From contig NZ_ML178712.1 in NCBI RefSeq assembly GCF_004360145.1, positions 1 to 64,000 of the forward strand: a stretch of 64,000 nucleotides of DNA. The letters are read 5' to 3'. Origin of the DNA: Aliiroseovarius marinus. GTDB lineage: Bacteria > Pseudomonadota > Alphaproteobacteria > Rhodobacterales > Rhodobacteraceae. The first letter of the stretch is position 1, and each line of letters begins with the position of its first letter. The notes beneath the pieces are model-generated. The model did not search any database, was not told the origin of the DNA, and saw nothing but the letters and a program-made list of their open reading frames with translations. Below, one piece after another: positions 46,982 through 58,855 of the stretch. A program made the position numbers and the translations under genes.

Positions 46982-47302
46982 TTACTCGTCGTCGTTCGCG
47001 GGCATGTCCGCAATGTCGTCCAGCGACACATCATCGTCATCGTCGTCGTCCAGAACATCATCGCCCAGATCAACATCGGATGCGTCGTCATCTTCCAGAA
47101 CCGCATCTGCGTCGTCGACCAGATCGTCCTTCATGACTGCTTTGTCTTCTTTGTCGGCAACCATCGTGCGCGACCCTTTACCGGTGTCCAGGTTCACGAC
47201 CTCACCCGTATAGGGGCTGACCACCGGATCGGCGTTCAGGTCGTAAAAGCGTTTACCGGTTGTCGGGCATACACGTTTGACGCCCCATTCAGCTTTGGGC
47301 AT
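46982..47302 (-). CDS. FYDLN-acid-domain protein (TIGR02300-type)
   Basis: Starting at ATG 47302 (MPKAEWGVKRVCPTTG), it has 106 residues. The N-terminal half carries the conserved KRVCPTTGKRFYDLNADPV and VSPYTGEVV; the C-terminal half is highly acidic (runs of aspartate). This is a common short alphaproteobacterial protein of unknown function. A longer frame upstream overlaps the next gene's promoter and is rejected. Confidence 0.9.
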   Translation of the reverse strand: MPKAEWGVKRVCPTTGKRFYDLNADPVVSPYTGEVVNLDTGKGSRTMVADKEDKAVMKDDLVDDADAVLEDDDASDVDLGDDVLDDDDDDDVSLDDIADMPANDDE

Positions 47303-47428
47303 AGGAAACCCTTTCCGTTCGTACTGACTCGTCTGAGATTTCAGGCAACTGCCACAATGCAGCATAGGTGTCAAAGGCTTTTGCAGGGAAGGGTTGACGT
47401 TGGACGGATTCAAGCCGCATTGAAGGGC

Positions 47429-48160
47429 ATGTTGTTTCGAAATTCACGCAATCGGCTGACCGAGAACACCACCCTGACATTGGGGGCGGCGGATCCGGTT
47501 GTGATTGAACTACGGGCGTCGAAACGGGCGCGCAGGCTGTCGTTACGGGTGTCCCGTCTGGATGGGCGCGTAACACTGACCGCGCCGCATGGGGCGAACA
47601 AGGACGAGGCCATCCAGTTTGCGAAAGAGCGTCTGGACTGGATCCGGGGCCATCTGGCCCAAACGGCCCCCAGCGAGGTTCCGGGCATCGGCTCGACCCT
47701 GCCCTTTCGCGGGCAGAGCGTGACGCTGGCGCGTGGTCAGGCGCGGGTGGTCAAAGTTGTGGGCGATCACATGTTACTGCCCCCACAATCCCCCGACCGC
47801 GACGCGATCCGGGCCGAGGCCTTTCTGAAAGAAGCCGCCCGCGCGGCGCTGGTGGCTGCCAGCGATACCTATGCGGAAAAGGTTGGGCGTGACTACGGGC
47901 GGATCACCTTGCGTGACACACGCTCGCGCTGGGGATCGTGCAGCTCGCGTGGCAATCTCAGCTATTCGTGGCGGCTGATCATGGCACCGCCCGAGGTTCT
48001 GGACTATGTCGCCGCCCATGAGGTCGCGCATCTGGTCCACATGGACCATTCTCGCGCCTTCTGGGCGCAGGTCGAGGCGATCTTTCCCAGCTACCAAGCG
48101 CCACGAAAGTGGCTGAAGGATCACGGGGCAGATTTACACCGCTATCGCTTTCGCGATTGA
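47429..48160 (+). CDS. YgjP-like (DUF45/M48-type) metallopeptidase domain protein
   Basis: From ATG 47429 (MLFRNSRN) the protein has 243 residues. It contains the zinc motif AAHEVAHLVHMDHSRAFW with the two histidines of HExxH and a third downstream, preceded by TRSRWGSCSSRGNLSYSWRL, typical of the YgjP/SprT-like group. An upstream frame starting at 47357 is less likely. It is probably cytoplasmic; the substrate is unknown. Confidence 0.88.
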   Translation: MLFRNSRNRLTENTTLTLGAADPVVIELRASKRARRLSLRVSRLDGRVTLTAPHGANKDEAIQFAKERLDWIRGHLAQTAPSEVPGIGSTLPFRGQSVTLARGQARVVKVVGDHMLLPPQSPDRDAIRAEAFLKEAARAALVAASDTYAEKVGRDYGRITLRDTRSRWGSCSSRGNLSYSWRLIMAPPEVLDYVAAHEVAHLVHMDHSRAFWAQVEAIFPSYQAPRKWLKDHGADLHRYRFRD

Positions 48161-48172
48161 CGCCTCCGGGAT

Positions 48173-48184
48173 TTGTGATCACAA
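48173..48184. promoter_or_regulatory. TTGTGATCACAA palindrome before the GntR gene
   Basis: A perfect 12-bp palindrome ends 8 bp before the GntR ATG at 48193. The TGTGATCACA core also occurs twice before sucC (58826-58835, 58846-58855). It is a strong candidate for the binding site of this regulator; here it would give autoregulation by blocking the ribosome-binding-site region or the transcription start. Confidence 0.7.
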
Positions 48185-48192
48185 TTACCCGC

Positions 48193-48843
48193 ATGCAAAG
48201 CCAAATTCGCCCAACCTCGGACAATACCAGCGCGCACGAGCGGGTTTACCGCCACCTGCGCACCCGCATCATGCATGGCGAGTTGGATCCGGGCGAGAGC
48301 CTGACCATCCGGGGGATTGGCGCGGAGTATGACGTCTCGATGACCCCCGCACGCGAGGCGGTACGCAGGCTGGCAGCTGAAGGCGCGCTGACGCTGTCCA
48401 GTTCAGGCCGGGTGACGGCACCGGACCTGACTGCCGAGCGGATTGAAGAGCTGACGGCCCTGCGCGCCCTGCTGGAGCCCGAGCTGGCCGCACGCGCCCT
48501 GCCCCGTGCCCATATGACCCTGATCGACCGCCTGCGCGCCATCAACGCCCGCGTGTCGGAATGCGTCGCCAATCAGGACGCCATCGGCTATCTGCGCACC
48601 AATCTGGAGTTCCACCGCACCATCTATCTGCGCGCGCAGGCCCCAGCTATCCTTGCGATGGCCGAGACCGTCTGGCTGCAGCTTGGTCCCACCATGCGTG
48701 CGCTCTATGCCAGCGGCCAGCGCACGGACCTACAGCGCCACCACCGCATGATCCTGTCCGCCCTCGCCGCCGGCGATGAACCGGCGTTGAGGCTCGCTGT
48801 GCGGACGGATGTAACGCAGGGCTTGAAGATGCTGGTGGGCTGA
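48193..48843 (+). CDS. GntR-family (FCD) transcriptional regulator
   Basis: The 216-residue protein starts at ATG 48193 (MQSQIRPTSD); the longer frame overlaps the peptidase gene. A winged HTH (about residues 20-80) has YRHLRTRIMHGELDPGESL and YDVSMTPAREAVRRLAAEGA. The FCD effector domain (90-216) has metal/ligand-type histidines (LEFHRTIYL, RHHRMILSAL). FCD regulators respond to small organic acids. The palindrome in its own promoter recurs upstream of the suc operon, which suggests control of the TCA-cycle genes transcribed towards it from the right. Confidence 0.9.
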   Translation: MQSQIRPTSDNTSAHERVYRHLRTRIMHGELDPGESLTIRGIGAEYDVSMTPAREAVRRLAAEGALTLSSSGRVTAPDLTAERIEELTALRALLEPELAARALPRAHMTLIDRLRAINARVSECVANQDAIGYLRTNLEFHRTIYLRAQAPAILAMAETVWLQLGPTMRALYASGQRTDLQRHHRMILSALAAGDEPALRLAVRTDVTQGLKMLVG

Positions 48844-48858
48844 GCGGCCCCCAAACGA

Positions 48859-48884
48859 AAAAGCACGCCCGAAGGCGTGCTTTT
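48859..48884. terminator. Bidirectional rho-independent terminator
   Basis: AAAAAGCACGCC-CGAA-GGCGTGCTTTT forms a strong stem with a GNRA-like CGAA loop. A run of T follows on the plus strand and of A on the other side, so it ends both the GntR transcript and the lpd operon that converges on it. Confidence 0.9.
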
Positions 48885-48905
48885 GTTCTTTCCGAGATCT
48901 AAAGA

Positions 48906-50291
48906 TCAGGCGTGGATCGCGCCGTCGCCACAGGCCAAGGCGGCTTCACGCACCGCTTCCGAGAAGGTCGGGTGGGCGTGGCAGGTGCGGGCCAGATCTT
49001 CGGCCGATCCACCGTATTCCATCAGCACACAGGCTTCGTGGATCAGCTCGCCAGCGGCGGGACCCATGATGTGGACGCCCAGCACACGGTCGGTGGCTTT
49101 ATCGGCCAGGATCTTCACGAAGCCGTCGCCCATGAACACGGCCTTCGCACGACCATTGCCCATGAAGCTGAACTTGCCAACCTTGTAGTCGACGCCAGCC
49201 TCTTTCAGCTCTTGTTCGGTCTTGCCGACCGATGCGACCTCGGGCGAGGTGTAGATCACGCCGGGGATCACGTCATAGTTCACGTGGCCCGCCTGACCGG
49301 CGATGCTTTCAGCAGCGGCCATACCTTCGTCTTCCGCCTTGTGGGCCAGCATCGGACCTTCGGTCACGTCGCCAATCGCCCAGATGCCGGGAACCGAGGT
49401 TTTCCAGTGGTCGGTGGCAATCTGACCGCGTTCGGTCATCTTCACGCCAGCGGCTTCCAGACCCAGACCGTCGACAAACGGACGGCGACCCGTGGCAACC
49501 AGCACCACATCGGCGTCGATCGAGTGTTCGCTGTCATCCTTGCGCAGCTTGTAGTTCACGGTCGCCTTGGTCTTCTTGGCGTCCACGTTCTGAACGGCAG
49601 CGCCCATGATGAAGTTCAGGCCCTGCTTTTTCAGCGTGCGCTGGAAGGTCTTCTGGATGTCTTTGTCCATGCCCGGGGTGATGTCGTCGAGGAATTCAAC
49701 CACGGTCACTTCCGACCCAAGACGCGCATAGACCGAGCCCATTTCCAGACCAATCACGCCCGCACCGATGACAACCATCTTCTTCGGGATTTTCGGCAGC
49801 TCAAGCGCGCCGGTCGAGGTCACGACGACTTTCTCGTCGACCTCAACGCCCGGCAAGCTCGACGGCTCGGAACCGGACGCGATCACGATGTGCTTGGCGG
49901 TGTGCACTTCGTCACCAACCTTGACCTGACCAGCCGCGGGGATCGATCCCCAGCCCTTCAGCCAGTCCACTTTGTTCTTCTTGAAGAGGAACTCGATGCC
50001 CTTGGTGTTCTGACCAATGACGTCGTCCTTATAGGCCAGCATCTCTTTCCAATCGACCGAGGGGCTTTTGCCCTTCAAGCCCATCTTGGCGAAGTTATGC
50101 TCGGCTTCGTGCAGGCTGTGCGACGCGTGCAGCAGCGCCTTCGAGGGGATACAGCCCACGTTCAGGCAGGTGCCGCCCAAGGTCTCGCGACCCTCGACAC
50201 ATGCGGTTTTCAGGCCCAGCTGAGCGCAACGGATCGCGCATACATAGCCGCCCGGGCCACCGCCGATTACGATTACGTCATAGTCTGCCAT
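48906..50291 (-). CDS. lpd: Dihydrolipoyl dehydrogenase (E3) of 2-oxoglutarate dehydrogenase
   Basis: The 461-residue flavoprotein has the N-terminal FAD motif [19 protein letters not shown] and the redox disulfide in [19 protein letters not shown]. The NAD motif is [20 protein letters not shown], and the C-terminal active-site region is [13 protein letters not shown]. It reoxidises the lipoyl groups of the E2 encoded upstream. It is the last gene of the suc cluster, ending at the terminator. Position after sucB and a small gene fits the E3 of this complex. Confidence 0.96.
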
Positions 50292-50382
50292 ATCTCACTA
50301 TCCTTCATTGTTCGCCATGCGCGCGGCCTTAGCTGTTTCTGCGCACTTGCCTATTCGTTTGCTGTTGTAAACCGCTCGGCCC

Positions 50383-50652
50383 TTAGACCGGGGTCAGCAG
50401 CTTCACATTCACGTTGATGACGCCGTCACGCTCCATATGCATGGCCAGTTCTTCAGACTCGAAGAAGGCGCGTGCCCGGTCGAGGTCCAGAACCTGGAAC
50501 AGGGCCACTGCGTGGTTGTCCTGATCCGGATCTTTCCAGACGTGCAATGTTTTGAGGCCAACAGCTTTGCGGTTGAAACGGTCCTGTTTGAAGACGGTGT
50601 ACCACGCGTCGAAATCCGCCACGTCAGCTTGCCAGAGTACATGGGTTGCCAT
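50383..50652 (-). CDS. Small dimeric alpha/beta-barrel-like protein
   Basis: The start is ATG 50652 (MATHVLWQADVADFDAW), with GGGAG about 9 nt upstream, giving 89 residues. The pattern (W-Y-x-VFKQDRFNRKAVGLKTLHVW, then ALFQVLDLDRARAFF) resembles small ferredoxin-like stress or cyclase proteins that dimerise. It lies between sucB and lpd in the operon. The activity is unknown. Confidence 0.7.
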   Translation of the reverse strand: MATHVLWQADVADFDAWYTVFKQDRFNRKAVGLKTLHVWKDPDQDNHAVALFQVLDLDRARAFFESEELAMHMERDGVINVNVKLLTPV

Positions 50653-50778
50653 GGTCAGAAACTCCCTCTGTGTGTGTGGCGACGCTAGCACGCGATAGCA
50701 TGCCGGTCTTTGACCTAAGTCGTGCGCCGGAAACAGGATGCTGGCGCGCCCGACCAGTGCCGAGCGCGCCAAGGTTCA

Positions 50779-52269
50779 TTACAGATCCATCAGCAGGCGG
50801 CGCGGATCTTCCAGAGCTTCTTTCACGCGCACCAGGAAGGTCACGGCGCCTTTGCCGTCAACGATGCGGTGGTCATAGCTCAGCGCCAGATACATCATCG
50901 GGCGGATGACAACCTGACCGTTGATCGCCATCGGGCGGTCCTGGATCTTGTGCATGCCAAGGATACCCGACTGCGGCGGGTTCAGGATCGGCGACGACAT
51001 CAGCGAGCCATAAACACCACCGTTCGAGATGGTGAAGGTGCCGCCCTGCATTTCTTCCATGCTAAGCTTACCGTCACGGGCGCGGCGGCCTTTCTCGGCG
51101 ATGGCTTTTTCGATCTCAGCGAAGGACATGCTGTCGGCATCGTTGATGACCGGAACAACCAGACCGGTGGGCGTACCCGCGGCGATGCCCATGTTCACGT
51201 AGTTCTTGTACACGATGTCGGTGCCGTCGATCTCGGCGTTCACTTCCGGCACTTCTTTCAGCGCGTGGCAGCAGGCCTTGGTGAAGAACGACATAAAGCC
51301 CAGACGGACGCCGTGCTTCTTCTCGAACAGGTCTTTGTACTCTTTGCGCAGAGCCATCGTTTCCGTCATGTCCACCTCGTTATAGGTGGTCAGCATGGCG
51401 GCGGTGTTCTGGCTGTCTTTCAGACGGCGCGCGATGGTCTGACGCAGGCGCGTCATCTTCACACGCTCTTCGCGCGATGCATCGCCAGCGGCGCGCGGGG
51501 CAGCCGGGGCCGGTGCGGGTGCAGCGGTTTTCGGCGCGGCCAAGGCGGCAGCAACGTCGTGCTTCATCACGCGACCGTCACGACCGGTGCCCTGCACGTC
51601 GGCGGGGTTCAGGCCAGCTTCGGCCATGGCTTTCTTGGCCGAGGGCGCGTCTTCGACGTCCTTACCAGCCGCCGCAGGTGCAGCAGCCGCGGCGGGCGCA
51701 GCATCCGGAGCGGCGGCGACCGCACCACCCGAGGACAAGACGGCCAGTTTGGCCGACGCATCAACGGTGGTGCCTTCGGGAGCCAGGATTTCGGCCAGAA
51801 CGCCAGCGGCGGGGGCCGGGACTTCAACAGATACCTTGTCGGTTTCCAGCTCGCACAGCATTTCGTCCTGTGCGACCGCGTCGCCAACCTGCTTGAACCA
51901 AGTCGATACGGTGGCTTCCGACACGCTTTCGCCCAGCGCGGGGACCATGACGTCTACAGCTTGGCCAGCGTCACCCGCAGGGGCTGCGGCCGGGGCAGCC
52001 TCGGCAGCGGCAGGTGCCGAGGCGGCGCCTTCGCCTTCGCCGATCATGGCCAGCAGCGCGTCAACACCAACGGTTTCACCTTCGGCGGCGGCGATTTCAC
52101 CCAGCGTACCAGCGGCAGGCGACGGCACTTCGACGGTCACTTTGTCGGTTTCCAGCTCGCAGAGCATCTCGTCTACGGCAACGGCGTCGCCGGGTTTCTT
52201 GAACCATGTTGCGACCGTGGCTTCGGTCACGCTTTCGCCCAGCGTCGGGACACGTACTTCAATGCTCAT
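50779..52269 (-). CDS. sucB: Dihydrolipoamide succinyltransferase (E2) with two lipoyl domains
   Basis: The 496-residue protein has two lipoyl domains, each with the lysine in ELETDKV (near residues 43 and 146), joined by Ala/Pro-rich linkers. A peripheral-subunit-binding domain follows ([29 protein letters not shown]), then the catalytic domain with [16 protein letters not shown] near the end. Many SucB proteins have one lipoyl domain; two is a known variation in this bacterial group. It starts 3 nt after sucA. Confidence 0.95.
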
Positions 52270-52272
52270 GGT

Positions 52273-55251
52273 TTATTTCCCTTCCATGGTCAGCGCGGCA
52301 TCCACCAGCGCCTCTTGTTGTGCTTTGTGGGTCGATGCCAGACCCGTTGCAGGCGATGCCGCAGCCGGACGACCGGCATAGACCGGACGCGTGTGTTTCG
52401 CGCCGATGCGGGTCAGCACCCATTCGATATTCGGTTCGACGAATGTCCACGAACCTTGGTTTTTCGGTTCTTCCTGACACCAGACGATTTCCGCCTGCTT
52501 GAAGCGCTCCAGTTCCTTGACGCAGGACATGGCCGGGAACGGATAGAACTGTTCAAGGCGCAGGATGTAGATGTCGTCGATGCCACGCTTGTCACGCTCT
52601 TCCAGCAGGTCGTAGTAGACCTTGCCCGAACACATGACGACGCGCTTGATCTTGTCGTCCTTGACCAGCTTGGCCTCGGAGCGGCCTGTGCCGTTTTCAC
52701 GATCGCCGTCATCCCACAGCACGCGGTGGAAGCTGGACCCTTCGGTGAAATCCTTGGCATCCGATACGCAGAGCTTGTGGCGCAGAAGCGATTTCGGCGT
52801 CATCAGGATCAGCGGCTTGCGGTATCCGCGGTGCAGCTGACGGCGCAGGATGTGGAAATAGTTCGCCGGGGTCGAGCAGTTCGCAACGATCCAGTTGTCG
52901 CCACCACACATCTGCAGGAAGCGCTCCAGACGGGCCGAGCTGTGCTCGGGGCCCTGCCCTTCGAAGCCGTGCGGCAGAAGGACGGTCAGACCAGACATCC
53001 GCAGCCATTTCGATTCACCGGACGAGATGAACTGGTCGAACATGATCTGCGCGCCGTTGGCGAAGTCGCCAAACTGGGCTTCCCACATCACCAGCGCGTT
53101 GGGTTCGGCCAGCGAATAGCCATATTCAAAGCCCAGCACCGCGTATTCCGACAGCATCGAGTCGATGACCTCGTAATGGGCCTGACCCTCGCGGATGTTG
53201 TTCAGCGGATAGTAACGCTCTTCGTTTTCCTGGTTGATCAGACCCGAGTGGCGCTGCGAGAACGTGCCGCGCGTACAGTCCTGACCGGCCAGACGGACCG
53301 GGAAGCCTTCGGTCAGCAGCGAGCCAAAGGCCAGTGCTTCTGCGGTTGCCCAGTCAAAGCCAGTGCCGCTTTCAAACATCTTGGCTTTGGTGTCCAGAAG
53401 ACGACCAACCGTCTTGTGCATCGGGAAGCCGTCCGGTGCGGTCGACAGCGCTTTGCCAACTTCTTGGAAGGTCTCGGTCGAGATATCCGTCTTGCCACGC
53501 TGATATTCGTCGCTGTTGCGATCAAGGTGCGACCAGCGCCCGTCCAGCCAGTCGGCCTTGTTGGGCTTGTAGTCTTTCCCAGCTTCGAACTCTTCGTTCA
53601 TGTGGGCCTGGAAGGCCGCTTTCATGTCCTCGATTTCGCCTTCCGGGATCAGGCCATCCTTGACCAGACGCTCGGTATACAGCTGCAGCGTGGTCTTATG
53701 TTTCTTGATGTTCTTGTACATCATCGGGTTGGTGAACATCGGCTCGTCGCCTTCGTTGTGACCAAACCGGCGATAGCAGAAGATGTCCAGAACCACGTCT
53801 TTGTGGAACTTCTGACGGAACTCGGTCGCGACGCGAGCAGCGTGCACCACGGCTTCCGGGTCGTCGCCATTCACGTGGAAGATCGGGGCTTCCACCATCA
53901 GGGCGATGTCCGTCGGATATGGCGACGAGCGCGAGAAGTGCGGCGCGGTGGTGAAACCAATCTGGTTGTTCACCACGATATGCATCGTGCCGCCGGTCTT
54001 GTGACCGACCAGACCGGACAGACCGAAGCCTTCGGCCACGACGCCCTGACCCGCAAAGGCCGCATCACCGTGCAGCAGGATCGGCAGAACCTGATCGCGA
54101 TCCACGTCGTTCATCTGTTCTTGCTTGGCGCGGACCTTGCCCAGAACAACTGGGTTCACCGCCTCAAGGTGCGAGGGGTTCGCGGTCAGCGACAGGTGGA
54201 CCTTGTTGTCGTCGAACTCGCGGTCCGACGAGGCGCCAAGGTGGTATTTCACGTCGCCCGAGCCGTCGACTTCCTCCGGCTTGAAGCTGCCGCCTTGGAA
54301 TTCGTTGAAGATCGCGCGGTACGGCTTCTGCATTACGTTGGCCAGAACCGAGAGGCGGCCACGGTGGGGCATGCCGATGACGATTTCTTTCAGGCCCAGC
54401 TGACCGCCGCGCTTGATGATCTGCTCCATCGCCGGGATCAGCGCTTCACCACCATCAAGGCCGAAACGCTTGGTGCCCATGTATTTCACGTGAAGGAATT
54501 TCTCGAAGCCCTCGGCCTCGACCAGCTTGTTCAGGATTGCCTTACGGCCTTCCTGCGTAAAGCGAATTTCCTTGTCGAACCCTTCGATGCGTTCTTTCAG
54601 CCAGCCAGCTTCTTCCGGGTTCGAGATGTGCATGTATTGCAGCGCAAAGGTGCCGCAATAGGTGCGCTTCACGATGTCCAGGATCTGACGGATCGAGGCA
54701 ACTTCCAGCCCCAGTACGTTGTCGATGAAGATCGGGCGATCCATGTCGGCATCGGTGAAGCCATAGGACGCGGGATCCAGTTCGGGATGCGGGGTGACCT
54801 TCTGCATGCCCAGCGGGTCCAGATCCGCAACAAGGTGACCTCGAATACGATAGGCGCGGATCAGCATCAGGGCGCGGATCGAGTCCAGAACAGCGCGTTT
54901 TACCTGACCGTCCGACAGCGATACGCCCTTTTCAGCGGCTTTCGCTTCGATTTTCTTGGCAGCCGCCTTGCCTTCCGCTTCAGGGGCTTCGGGCCATTGA
55001 CCGTCCAGCGCATGCACGCGGTCGCCATCCGGCATCGGGGGCCAGTCGCCACGCGCCCAGCTGGGGCCAGCGGCTTCGGCGGTCACATCACGAGCATCAT
55101 CCCCAAGCTCAGCGAAAAATGCGTGCCATGCGGCGTCGACCGCATTGGGATCTTTCACATACTGGGCGTACAGTTGCTCCAGATACTCGGCGTTGTGGCC
55201 TTGCATGAAGCTTGATGCGTGGAAGATGTCATTAGGGGATTGGTCGTTCAT
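52273..55251 (-). CDS. sucA: 2-oxoglutarate dehydrogenase E1 component
   Basis: The 992-residue protein has the usual length for E1o. The N-terminus has the E2-binding-type segment (YLEQLYAQYVKDPNAVDAAW). Thiamine-diphosphate-domain motifs include MPHRGRLSVLANVMQKPY and RRFGHNEGDEPMFTNPMMY. RHSGLINQENEERYYPLNN and LLPHGFEGQGPEHSSARLER occur in the transketolase-like part. It oxidises 2-oxoglutarate and passes the succinyl group to E2. A sulfotransferase gene lies between it and sucD. Confidence 0.97.
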   Translation of the reverse strand: MNDQSPNDIFHASSFMQGHNAEYLEQLYAQYVKDPNAVDAAWHAFFAELGDDARDVTAEAAGPSWARGDWPPMPDGDRVHALDGQWPEAPEAEGKAAAKKIEAKAAEKGVSLSDGQVKRAVLDSIRALMLIRAYRIRGHLVADLDPLGMQKVTPHPELDPASYGFTDADMDRPIFIDNVLGLEVASIRQILDIVKRTYCGTFALQYMHISNPEEAGWLKERIEGFDKEIRFTQEGRKAILNKLVEAEGFEKFLHVKYMGTKRFGLDGGEALIPAMEQIIKRGGQLGLKEIVIGMPHRGRLSVLANVMQKPYRAIFNEFQGGSFKPEEVDGSGDVKYHLGASSDREFDDNKVHLSLTANPSHLEAVNPVVLGKVRAKQEQMNDVDRDQVLPILLHGDAAFAGQGVVAEGFGLSGLVGHKTGGTMHIVVNNQIGFTTAPHFSRSSPYPTDIALMVEAPIFHVNGDDPEAVVHAARVATEFRQKFHKDVVLDIFCYRRFGHNEGDEPMFTNPMMYKNIKKHKTTLQLYTERLVKDGLIPEGEIEDMKAAFQAHMNEEFEAGKDYKPNKADWLDGRWSHLDRNSDEYQRGKTDISTETFQEVGKALSTAPDGFPMHKTVGRLLDTKAKMFESGTGFDWATAEALAFGSLLTEGFPVRLAGQDCTRGTFSQRHSGLINQENEERYYPLNNIREGQAHYEVIDSMLSEYAVLGFEYGYSLAEPNALVMWEAQFGDFANGAQIMFDQFISSGESKWLRMSGLTVLLPHGFEGQGPEHSSARLERFLQMCGGDNWIVANCSTPANYFHILRRQLHRGYRKPLILMTPKSLLRHKLCVSDAKDFTEGSSFHRVLWDDGDRENGTGRSEAKLVKDDKIKRVVMCSGKVYYDLLEERDKRGIDDIYILRLEQFYPFPAMSCVKELERFKQAEIVWCQEEPKNQGSWTFVEPNIEWVLTRIGAKHTRPVYAGRPAAASPATGLASTHKAQQEALVDAALTMEGK

Positions 55252-55271
55252 AGGTCACACCTTCTGTTTTC

Positions 55272-55997
55272 TCAGTGCGGGACTTCAAGCGAGTAATTCG
55301 CGTGTTCAAAGACCCATGAGAAGCGATCCCGAACAATGTCCGCGGTCTCTTCATCATAAAACTCGGCTGTTGACGGCCGTTGGTCTGCGCTCGAGGAGTT
55401 CGTCTTCTTGGTTACGGGCAAATGGGCCAATGACGGGTCAAGGCCAAGGCGGTCCACAAGCGCGTTCAGGTCGTCTGCCAGATGTTCTTGCCGGATCAGC
55501 ACGTCAGGAACGAACTCTCCGTCAAGAAAGACAATCGCATGGTCATTCTGAATCTTCCTGCTTAGGATTTTTCTGCGAAACCCGTCGATAACGTCATCCC
55601 GATTGGTCTGAGCGCCATTCCGTTGTTTCAATGACCAATAATAAGCCGAGATCATCCGTTTAAAGGGATTGCGCACTGACGAGATCTTCAGCGATTGCCC
55701 CCAAAACTCGGGATCCAACCCAGCTTTGACCTTGCTAGCCGCCATGTGAGGGTACCAGTTGTGGGTCCCGTTTCTCACCTGCCAAAGATGGCGCGGCTTT
55801 TGATACCACTTAAGCGTCTCGCTTACGCGGCGACGTCCGGCGATACCGTATTCACTGACAATGGGATGCGGTTGGTACTCGGTCACTTTCTTGCCCGGAG
55901 GCACGCAATACGCCTGCAGAAACATCTCGGTCGAGGTGCCTGCCGTCTTGCGTGTCTTCAAGTAGACAAAATTGTGCTTGTAGCTGACCAGCGTCAT
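55272..55997 (-). CDS. Sulfotransferase-family protein inside the suc operon
   Basis: Starting at ATG 55997 (MTLVSYKHNFVYLKT) it has 241 residues. FVYLKTRKTAGTSTEMFLQ is the 5'-phosphosulfate-binding loop, and LKISSVRNPFKRMISAYYW matches the 3'-phosphate-binding motif of PAPS-dependent sulfotransferases. It has no membrane helix. The gene sits between sucD and sucA in the same direction, an insertion not part of the enzyme complex; its acceptor is unknown. Confidence 0.8.
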   Translation of the reverse strand: MTLVSYKHNFVYLKTRKTAGTSTEMFLQAYCVPPGKKVTEYQPHPIVSEYGIAGRRRVSETLKWYQKPRHLWQVRNGTHNWYPHMAASKVKAGLDPEFWGQSLKISSVRNPFKRMISAYYWSLKQRNGAQTNRDDVIDGFRRKILSRKIQNDHAIVFLDGEFVPDVLIRQEHLADDLNALVDRLGLDPSLAHLPVTKKTNSSSADQRPSTAEFYDEETADIVRDRFSWVFEHANYSLEVPH

Positions 55998-56077
55998 CTC
56001 TTTGTCCCAGTTCACCTCAGAGTCATTTCTTCGGCGACGTGAACGAGGCCGACCAAGATCGGCCTCGTCCAAGATCA

Positions 56078-56962
56078 TTATTTGCCGATTGCTTCCAGAA
56101 CGGCTTCGCCCAGCGTGGCGGGGCTGTCAGCAACAACGATGCCAGCCGAACGCATGGCTTCGATCTTGTCTTCTGCACCGCCTTTACCACCGGCAACAAT
56201 CGCGCCAGCGTGGCCCATGCGGCGGCCCGGAGGTGCCGTACGGCCAGCGATGAAGCCAGCGACCGGCTTCCAGCGACCCTTCTTCTTCTGCTCGGCCAGG
56301 AATTCAGCAGCTTCTTCTTCTGCCGAACCACCGATTTCACCGATCATGATGATCGACTGGGTCTCGTCGTCGTCCAGGAACATGTCCAGTACGTCGATGT
56401 GCTCGGTACCTTTGATGGGGTCACCACCGATACCAACAGCGGTCGACTGGCCCAGACCGATGTCCGACGTCTGCTTCACAGCTTCATAGGTCAGCGTACC
56501 CGAGCGCGACACAACGCCAACCGAACCACGCTTGTGGATGTGGCCGGGCATGATGCCGATCTTACAAGCGTCCGGCGTGATGACACCGGGGCAGTTCGGG
56601 CCGATCAGGCGCGAAGCCGAACCTTCCAGAGCGCGCTGCACCTTCATCATGTCCAGCACCGGAATGCCTTCGGTGATGCAGACGATCAGTTCCATCTCTG
56701 CGTCGATCGCTTCAAGGATCGAGTCAGCCGCGAAGGGCGGCGGCACGTAGATTACGGAAGCGTTGGCTTCGGTGACGTGCTTGGCTTCGTGAACCGAGTT
56801 GAAGATCGGCAGGTCCAGATGCGTCTGGCCACCTTTGCCCGGCGTCACACCGCCGACCATTTTGGTGCCATATGCAATGGCCTGTTCCGAGTGAAAGGTA
56901 CCCTGCGAGCCGGTGAGGCCCTGACAGATCACCTTTGTATTTTCATCGATAAGGACTGCCAT
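56078..56962 (-). CDS. sucD: Succinyl-CoA synthetase alpha subunit
   Basis: The 294-residue protein starts at ATG 56962 ([18 protein letters not shown]). The CoA-binding Rossmann region has [20 protein letters not shown], and the phosphorylated active-site histidine is in [16 protein letters not shown]. It forms the enzyme with SucC and makes ATP or GTP from succinyl-CoA. It follows a lipoprotein gene that separates it from sucC. Confidence 0.96.
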
Positions 56963-57021
56963 TTGGCTTTCTCCCTTTCTCGTGGGACATGCCCACATGT
57001 TTTGCGTTTCGGGGGAGGGCG

Positions 57022-57513
57022 CTACCCGCCCACAATCCCCAGAAGATATTCGGCCGTGGCGGCACCTGCGCGGCTGTTGCCGAGGTTGATGAGCATCTTA
57101 CCCTTCGCCCCCCGGTTATATTCCGGCACCCGAACAGCGCCGAAATAGGCAACATCCGAGTGACGCGCGCCGCCATAGCGCGAAGCAAGTTCGTTTTGCA
57201 AAGCGATCAGATCACCCTCATACGTGCCGCCAACCCAACAGATCGGCGTACCATCTGCCATCTCGGTCACACGACCGACGAGAGCTTTGGTTTCGGACTG
57301 CCACGCCACCCCCATATCCCGGGTCAGACCACGTGCTTGAAAGCGCGCTTCTACTCCGGAAAAGTCAGGGCGGGTTGCCCCGCAGGTCGCATCCAGCAAT
57401 GCAATCGCCTCGGATACCGGGACCATTTGCAGTGCAGAGCGCGACTGCTCGGGTGTCGACTGACATGCAGCCAGCCCCACGAAAGCCGTAAGAGTGATCA
57501 AAGCCTTGCGCAT
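57022..57513 (-). CDS. Putative lipoprotein between sucC and sucD
   Basis: The 163-residue protein has a lipoprotein signal ([19 protein letters not shown]) with lipobox LAAC. The mature part has two more cysteines ([19 protein letters not shown]) that may pair. I do not recognise a family. It lies 5 nt after sucC and about 59 nt before sucD on the same strand, so it is probably co-transcribed. Confidence 0.8.
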
Positions 57514-57518
57514 CTTGC

Positions 57519-58712
57519 TTAGCCCTTCACCGCTTTCACGATCTTCTCAGCACCATCCGACAGGTTGTCAGCAGCGATCACATCAACGTCCGAGTTGTTG
57601 ATGATGTCTTTGCCGGCTTCCACGTTGGTGCCTTCCAGGCGCACGACCAGCGGAACCTGCAGGCCCACTTCTTTCACGGCTGCAACCACGCCCTCGGCGA
57701 TGACGTCACAGCGCATGATGCCGCCGAAGATGTTCACAAGGATGCCCTTTACGTTCGGGTCCGAGGTGATGATCTTGAAGGCTTCGGTCACTTTCTCTTT
57801 GGTGGCGCCGCCGCCTACGTCCAAGAAGTTGGCCGGCTCAGCACCGTACAGCTTGATGATGTCCATGGTGGCCATTGCCAGACCAGCACCGTTCACCATG
57901 CAGCCAATTTCACCGTCCAGAGCGATGTAGTTCAGGTCGTATTTCGACGCTTCCAGCTCTTTCGGATCTTCTTCGGTAACGTCGCGCAGCTCGGCGATGT
58001 CCTGGTGGCGGTAAACAGCGTTGCCGTCGAAGCCAACCTTGGCGTCCAGAACTTTAAGATCGCCGCCATCGGTGATGATCAGCGGGTTGATTTCCAGCAT
58101 CTCCATGTCTTTCTCGACGAAAGCTTGGTAGAGCTTGCCCATCAGTGCCACACACTGCTTGACCTGAGCGCCTTCAAGGCCCAGCGAGAATGCAATGCGG
58201 CGGCCGTGGTAGGCTTGGTAGCCCGTCGCCGGATCAACCGAGAAGCTCAGGATCTTTTCGGGGGTGGCGGCTGCCACTTCCTCGATGTCCATGCCGCCTT
58301 CGGTCGAGCATACGAACGAAATACGCGAGGTCTGGCGGTCAACCAGCAGCGCCAGGTACAGCTCACGCTCGATGCCGGAGCCGGCTTCGATGTAGATGCG
58401 GTTTACCTGCTTGCCGGCCGGGCCGGTCTGGTGGGTCACAAGGGTGCGGCCCAGCATCTTCTTGGCTTCTTCAGCGGCTTCTTCCACCGACTTGGTCAGG
58501 CGGACACCGCCCTTTTCGCCAGCGTCAGCTTCCTTGAAGGAACCTTTGCCGCGGCCACCTGCGTGGATTTGTGCTTTGACCACCCAAAGCGGTCCGTCGA
58601 GTTCACCTGCGGCGGTTTTGGCATCTTCTGCTTTCAGTACAACGCGGCCGTCCGAAACGGGTGCGCCGTAGGATTTCAGAAGGGCCTTCGCCTGGTATTC
58701 ATGAATGTTCAT
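57519..58712 (-). CDS. sucC: Succinyl-CoA synthetase beta subunit
   Basis: The 397-residue protein has the N-terminal ATP-grasp domain ([36 protein letters not shown]), the metal region [25 protein letters not shown] and the C-terminal CoA-ligase part ([33 protein letters not shown]). It is the first gene of the suc operon. Two TGTGATCACA boxes lie about 115-145 bp upstream of its start. Confidence 0.97.
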
Positions 58713-58825
58713 GAAATCATCCTATCCAGTTGGTCCATTGGGTCTTGGACAAGATGCACAGGTGAAGCAGAAGGCCGAAACGTTTTTTGCAATTTCGGGC
58801 GAATTTCCGGCGAAGTCGTGTTTTT

Positions 58826-58855
58826 TGTGATCACACCTTAAAATGTGTGATCACA
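58826..58855. promoter_or_regulatory. Two TGTGATCACA operators upstream of sucC
   Basis: The 10-bp palindromes at 58826-58835 and 58846-58855 are 20 bp apart, about two helical turns, and are themselves arranged symmetrically (TTGTGATCACAC...TGTGTGATCACAAA). They match the core of the palindrome before the GntR gene at 48173-48184. Confidence 0.75.

Follow-up and report, generated by a model that had tools for sequence, protein, structure and literature searches.

The 64-kb stretch of Aliiroseovarius marinus DNA analyzed here (hereafter the window) contains a gene for a GntR/FCD regulator, most likely an ortholog of AkgR from Rhodobacter sphaeroides, next to a run of suc genes, and copies of one palindrome with the core GTGATCAC precede both. 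The regulator gene (48193–48843, forward strand) encodes a protein matching the Pfam families GntR and FCD over the cut-off; the list of open reading frames (ORFs) puts the start of its frame at GTG 48109, but conservation favours ATG 48193. A single predicted operator, an exact copy of TTGTGATCACAA (48173–48184, no strand assigned), lies 8 bp before the gene. The run on the reverse strand consists, in order, of sucC (57519–58712; NF001913), a small gene of unknown family (57022–57513), sucD (56078–56998; NF004230), a sulfotransferase-family gene (55272–56078; PF03567), sucA (52273–55251; NF006914), sucB (50779–52269; NF004309), a second small gene of unknown family (50383–50772) and lpd, encoding dihydrolipoyl dehydrogenase (48906–50291; TIGR01350); both small genes are ORFs with no Pfam match. 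The end of lpd at 48906 adjoins that of the convergent GntR gene at 48843, with a terminator-like hairpin (48859–48884, forward strand) between the two. Upstream of sucC, a nearer (58826–58835) and a farther (58846–58855) predicted operator, neither assigned a strand, are exact copies of TGTGATCACA spaced 20 bp start to start, and 113 bp separate the nearer copy from the sucC ATG at 58712. The initial annotation had linked the GntR gene to the suc operon by these palindromes and by the operon ending beside the regulator gene, and all of these features were borne out.

Exact TGTGATCACA was found three times in the window, at the two sucC operators and at 48174–48183, nested within the TTGTGATCACAA copy. 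This compares with 0.10 copies expected, and none of 100 dinucleotide shuffles reached three. When one mismatch was allowed, the four TGTGATCACA matches in the window were unremarkable (2.07 expected), and with three mismatches allowed the sucC pair was the window's only match to the pair pattern, though 26 of 100 shuffles contained one as well. A scan of the whole genome, proposed in the initial annotation as a check for unrelated copies, revealed few of them: the 3.13 Mb in 33 contigs contain nine exact copies, compared to none for the reversed control. Five of the nine fall inside 19 kb, namely the site at the GntR gene, the sucC pair and a second pair outside the window, which precedes sdhC (ATG at 67203) with copies at 67050 and 67071 of contig 1, spaced 21 bp. 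Three others lie within long reading frames (an NtrX-type regulator, a TRCF/Mfd-type helicase and CbiJ/CobK), and the remaining copy is intergenic, between zapE and folC.

Pairs of this kind were found throughout the order. For genome counts a pair was defined as GTGATCAC-N10-15-GTGATCAC; this replaced an earlier pattern restricted to 19–20 bp spacing, which matched 53 of 390 genomes and missed 21-bp pairs, and whose loci were reused for the anatomy, so that the spacing tally given here is biased towards 20. At least one pair, and usually two, was present in 239 of 244 genomes of the order, compared to none for the control. Among the matches listed, 125 pair loci were examined, and removal of five identical repeats left 120 distinct pairs. 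Every one of these preceded either sucC (51 pairs) or sdhC (69 pairs), at a spacing of 20 or 21 bp. Both cores were present in all 12 sequences with a full sucC upstream stretch; five of the 17 sucC-bearing rows were left out since a locus end or an incomplete match shortens that stretch.

At sdhC, the position of the pair relative to the promoter was analyzed using the first [GT]TGAC[AT] located 40 bp or more beyond the pair and 50 bp or more ahead of the ATG. Such a -35-like box was found at 56 of 69 sdhC promoters, 47–51, 56–61, 69–71 or 80–81 bp after the pair, and none at 52–55, 62–68 or 72–79 bp; in the first sdhC set it was present in 26 of 33 sequences, compared to 3.4 in shuffles. Most boxes belong to the 56–61 peak, which common descent could account for. 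The 13 sequence clusters outside this peak were in phase with a 10.5-bp helical turn (R 0.83, p = 5e-5), and the test on their nine distinct positions gave p = 0.001. The pair thus appears to require one face of the promoter, as expected for an activator, and this geometry favours activation.

A different arrangement was found at the GntR gene itself, where a single site lies within the promoter. The 81 sequences compared consist of the best 80 of at least 503 relatives from a pattern scan, whose best-matching named loci belong to the genus Aliiroseovarius, and the window. The core GTGATCAC was present at the gene start in 77 of them, preceded at exactly 18 bp by TTGA[CT] in 67 of the 77 and followed after 8–10 bp by the first in-frame start codon, likewise in 67 of 77. 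In the window, a predicted -35 box TTGACG (48157–48162, forward strand), spaced 17 nt from a predicted -10 box CACAAT (48180–48185, forward strand), was the sole promoter-like match in 48100–48960, and the -10 box overlaps the operator. The expected transcription start coincides approximately with ATG 48193, and the message is therefore probably leaderless. The overlap of the site with the predicted -10 box, just before the ATG, favours repression by the protein of its own gene. Ahead of the GntR gene (46982–48160) lie genes for an FYDLN_acid protein and a YgjP-like metallopeptidase, and the TTGACG box overlaps the end of that peptidase frame.

The gene and the pairs were also shown to occur together. 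A GntR profile from an alignment of 23 sequences, searched over the 244 genomes of the order, matched 241 at 1e-40 or better and 239 of these at 1e-92 or better, the latter being counted as having a close relative. A pair was present in 238 of the 239 genomes with a close relative and in 1 of the 5 others (Fisher p = 1.7e-7, kinship ignored). Conservation and co-occurrence together lend strong support to the proposed link of the GntR gene to the sucC promoter. The only genome with the gene that escaped the pair pattern (G231) has, at sucC, one exact core and one singly changed core 21 bp apart, and was missed because of that change. No core was found in the 330 bp before sucC in G141, with a paralog-level match only, in G232, with no match, or in G110 and G227, two genomes of one genus with a diverged relative (3e-67 and 2e-62); G110 has kept a core ahead of its own GntR gene.

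In a sample of 190 genomes of the class, 187 of them outside the family, the profile matched 16 of the 187 with a best value of 1.6e-49, no better than paralogs within the family (4.6e-53 to 1.9e-47). Pairs were found in three of the 187 (G403, G405 and G535), and the control gave five matches, all in one genome (G462). In G535 (L229, approximately 992–1163), the end of a GTGATCAC pair is followed, after 143 bp, by a GntR gene with 33% identity, which may reflect a more distant regulator sharing the palindrome.

These results are consistent with a scheme in which the GntR/FCD protein would bind GTGATCAC directly as a dimer; upstream of sucC and of sdhC, a pair of adjacent dimers would occupy one face of the DNA at a distance of two helical turns. 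The bound pairs would raise transcription of these tricarboxylic acid cycle genes, the sucC pair serving sucC-sucD-sucA-sucB-lpd as what is presumably one transcript, and the single site over the -10 box of the regulator's own promoter would allow repression of its own, probably leaderless, message. We regard this AkgR-type scheme, with paired sites activating suc and sdh and a single site repressing the regulator's own message, as very likely, and the activation at suc and sdh, taken as a step by itself, as likely. If so, a regulator described in one species would, by sequence, be near-universal in the sampled order, nearly all of whose genomes carry both the regulator and site pairs ahead of sucC or sdhC. 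Testable features are the activation geometry suggested by helical phasing at sdhC and the feedback loop suggested by the conserved, probably leaderless, own promoter.

Several observations weigh against this scheme. At sucC no -35 box stands out (4 of 28 sequences, compared to 3.0 in shuffles), so the activation geometry is taken from sdhC. Four of the 81 sequences (L030, L032, L035 and L052) have no core at the GntR gene. The co-occurrence figures take no account of how the genomes are related, and the threshold behind them was chosen afterwards. Genome G023 keeps both the sucC and the sdhC pair with no GntR relative found; G020 of the same genus has the gene and a pair, and G023 represents a recent loss or an assembly gap. 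The initial annotation had considered that suc sites might be conserved in genomes lacking the GntR gene, and among the five genomes with an absent or diverged gene this holds for G023 and not for the four without a pair. Orthology to RSP_0981 of R. sphaeroides is putative. In addition, the A. marinus genome encodes nine FCD proteins, and the palindrome is also used by a more distantly related GntR protein (PMC6365646), so the identity of the protein cannot be read from the motif by itself.

The alternative that survives best is that the protein is the AkgR ortholog but acts on suc and sdh as a repressor in the absence of its ligand. The operator of the regulator gene, which overlaps the predicted -10 box, would suit such a protein. 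Many GntR/FCD proteins are repressors, which speaks for the same reading. The sdhC pairs, however, end 47–81 bp before the -35-like box and in helical phase with it, and AkgR is called an activator in PMC6365646; we therefore consider repression of suc and sdh rather unlikely.

Binding of the sites by a different GntR/FCD paralog from the same genome is less probable still. Besides the nine FCD proteins and the pairs retained in G023, such a reading draws on the palindrome being common to more distant GntR proteins, namely that of G535 and PS417_07240, which is 32% identical to AkgR (PMC6365646). Against it, the close relative tracks the pairs and bears a site at its own start, and of 187 genomes outside the family, 16 have paralog-level matches but only three have pairs.

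Binding by a Crp/Fnr-like protein, with the own-gene site merely placing the GntR gene in the same regulon, was considered since the halves of the palindrome, TGTGA and TCACA, match those recognized by Crp, which are separated by six bases (TGTGA-N6-TCACA). In TGTGATCACA, however, the halves abut, the pairs follow the distribution of the close GntR relative (238 of 239 genomes, compared to 1 of 5 in which it is absent or diverged), and the site before the GntR gene is present in 77 of 81 sequences. Moreover, no CRP-like protein is predicted for R. sphaeroides (PMC4344238), and this explanation appears highly improbable. That the three palindromes match by chance, as the ordinary window count with one mismatch might suggest, is refuted by the pairs in 239 of 244 genomes compared to none for the control, as well as by the shuffles, none of which gave three exact copies, and its probability is negligible.

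The intergenic copy between zapE and folC belongs to an element outside the window (contig 6, 38910–39175; L009, 7911–8176) that has relatives in L296–L311; in the A. marinus genome a second GTGATCAC core lies 258 bp away. Among 18 zapE-folC loci of the genus, including that of A. marinus (L296–L313), 15 have two cores 255–260 bp apart. A conserved element, flanked by the core positions, was likewise recognized in 15 of the 18, 14 of them with both cores 255–258 bp apart and one (L307) with a changed upstream core; L310, L312 and L313 have no recognisable element, and L313 still has both cores. On the minus strand the element shows, in order, TTGAC, GTTAGC, a TATAAA-like box and a hairpin of approximately 52 nt, the promoter being read by eye since the promoter scan, whose rule demands a final T, gave no match. 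When the stretch was searched against Rfam, the two matches lay in other parts of it and scored far under the gathering score, and the single-sequence fold was unexceptional (z = -1.48, with an equally good fold in 16 of 200 shuffles). In the alignment, based on the predicted fold of one member, 93.2% of cells pair, and the covariation score and the number of cells changed on both sides exceeded those of all 500 shuffles; three pairs changed on both sides were, however, matched by 167 of 500 shuffles, and 442 of 500 equalled the further pair types. The paired changes mostly reflect a single divergence of two subclades. Most rows have a GTG frame at +31, with diverging sequence and length. A model of the element matched four of the 244 genomes, all Aliiroseovarius (four of the five of that genus in the sample). 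We describe the element as structured and possibly non-coding. We put forward only tentatively, as less probable than the opposite, that in Aliiroseovarius the zapE-folC interval contains a further target of the AkgR-type protein, namely an unannotated RNA that is structured and probably non-coding; this would give the regulator an RNA arm besides its enzyme targets.

Compared by sequence to proteins of solved structure, the GntR protein was closest to McbR/YncC of Escherichia coli (E = 1.1e-23), which also came first in a fold search run with a weak model. The two share approximately 25% identity in the fold alignment and differ in regulon, and the A. marinus protein is not a member of that group. 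The model (pLDDT 70, pTM 0.46) was too weak for statements on the ligand pocket. In metal-binding FCD regulators the ligands are an Asp or Asn and three His; N137, H141, H184 and D206 were invariant in the 23 aligned sequences, and from their spacing D206 may take the place of the third His.

AkgR of R. sphaeroides, which we take to be RSP_0981, is the known system closest to that of the window. RSP_0981, a GntR-family protein, has sucCD, sdh and the genes for 2-oxoglutarate dehydrogenase as predicted targets (PMC4344238), and GTGATCAC is listed among the binding sites of the activator AkgR in PMC6365646, the only relevant paper recognized in a literature search for the motif; it cites a 2015 mBio paper that is also in the reference lists of PMC4419725, PMC8557541, PMC7471390 and PMC11323563. 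The protein of the window is likewise of the GntR family, GTGATCAC is present at its gene and at its predicted targets, and the predicted sites before sucC and sdhC correspond to the targets of RSP_0981. PS417_07240, a GntR-like protein of Pseudomonas simiae involved in deoxyribonate oxidation, also has GTGATCAC close upstream of its own gene and differs in pathway and in its low identity to AkgR (PMC6365646). CceR (RSP_1663) shares sdh and 2-oxoglutarate dehydrogenase as targets in R. sphaeroides (PMC11323563) but is of the LacI family with the motif GTT-N6-8-AAC (PMC4344238). This full pattern was found in 1 of 33 sdhC promoters (2.6 in shuffles) and in 9 of 28 sucC promoters (2.4 in shuffles), and GTTAGCGC, a possible CceR half-site, in 8 of 33 sdhC promoters, compared to 0.06 in shuffles; a LacI-like AAACCGTTT at sucC that had seemed conserved by eye was dropped, being present in only 2 of 28 sequences.

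The initial annotation had called the regulator unrecognised and local. With regulator, motif and targets in print for R. sphaeroides (PMC4344238, PMC6365646), the first term was wrong, and the second is too narrow given the sdhC pair outside the window; lpd was visible in only 19 of 53 relative loci with approximately 10 kb on either side of the GntR gene. The paired spacing, the helical phase and the geometry of the own promoter were not found in the available text of PMC4344238 and PMC6365646, a comparison that does not cover the 2015 mBio paper. The system is real and looks functional, but its kind has been described before, probably under the name of AkgR. Co-occurrence across the order, phasing with the helix and the geometry of the own promoter add detail rather than a new kind of system.

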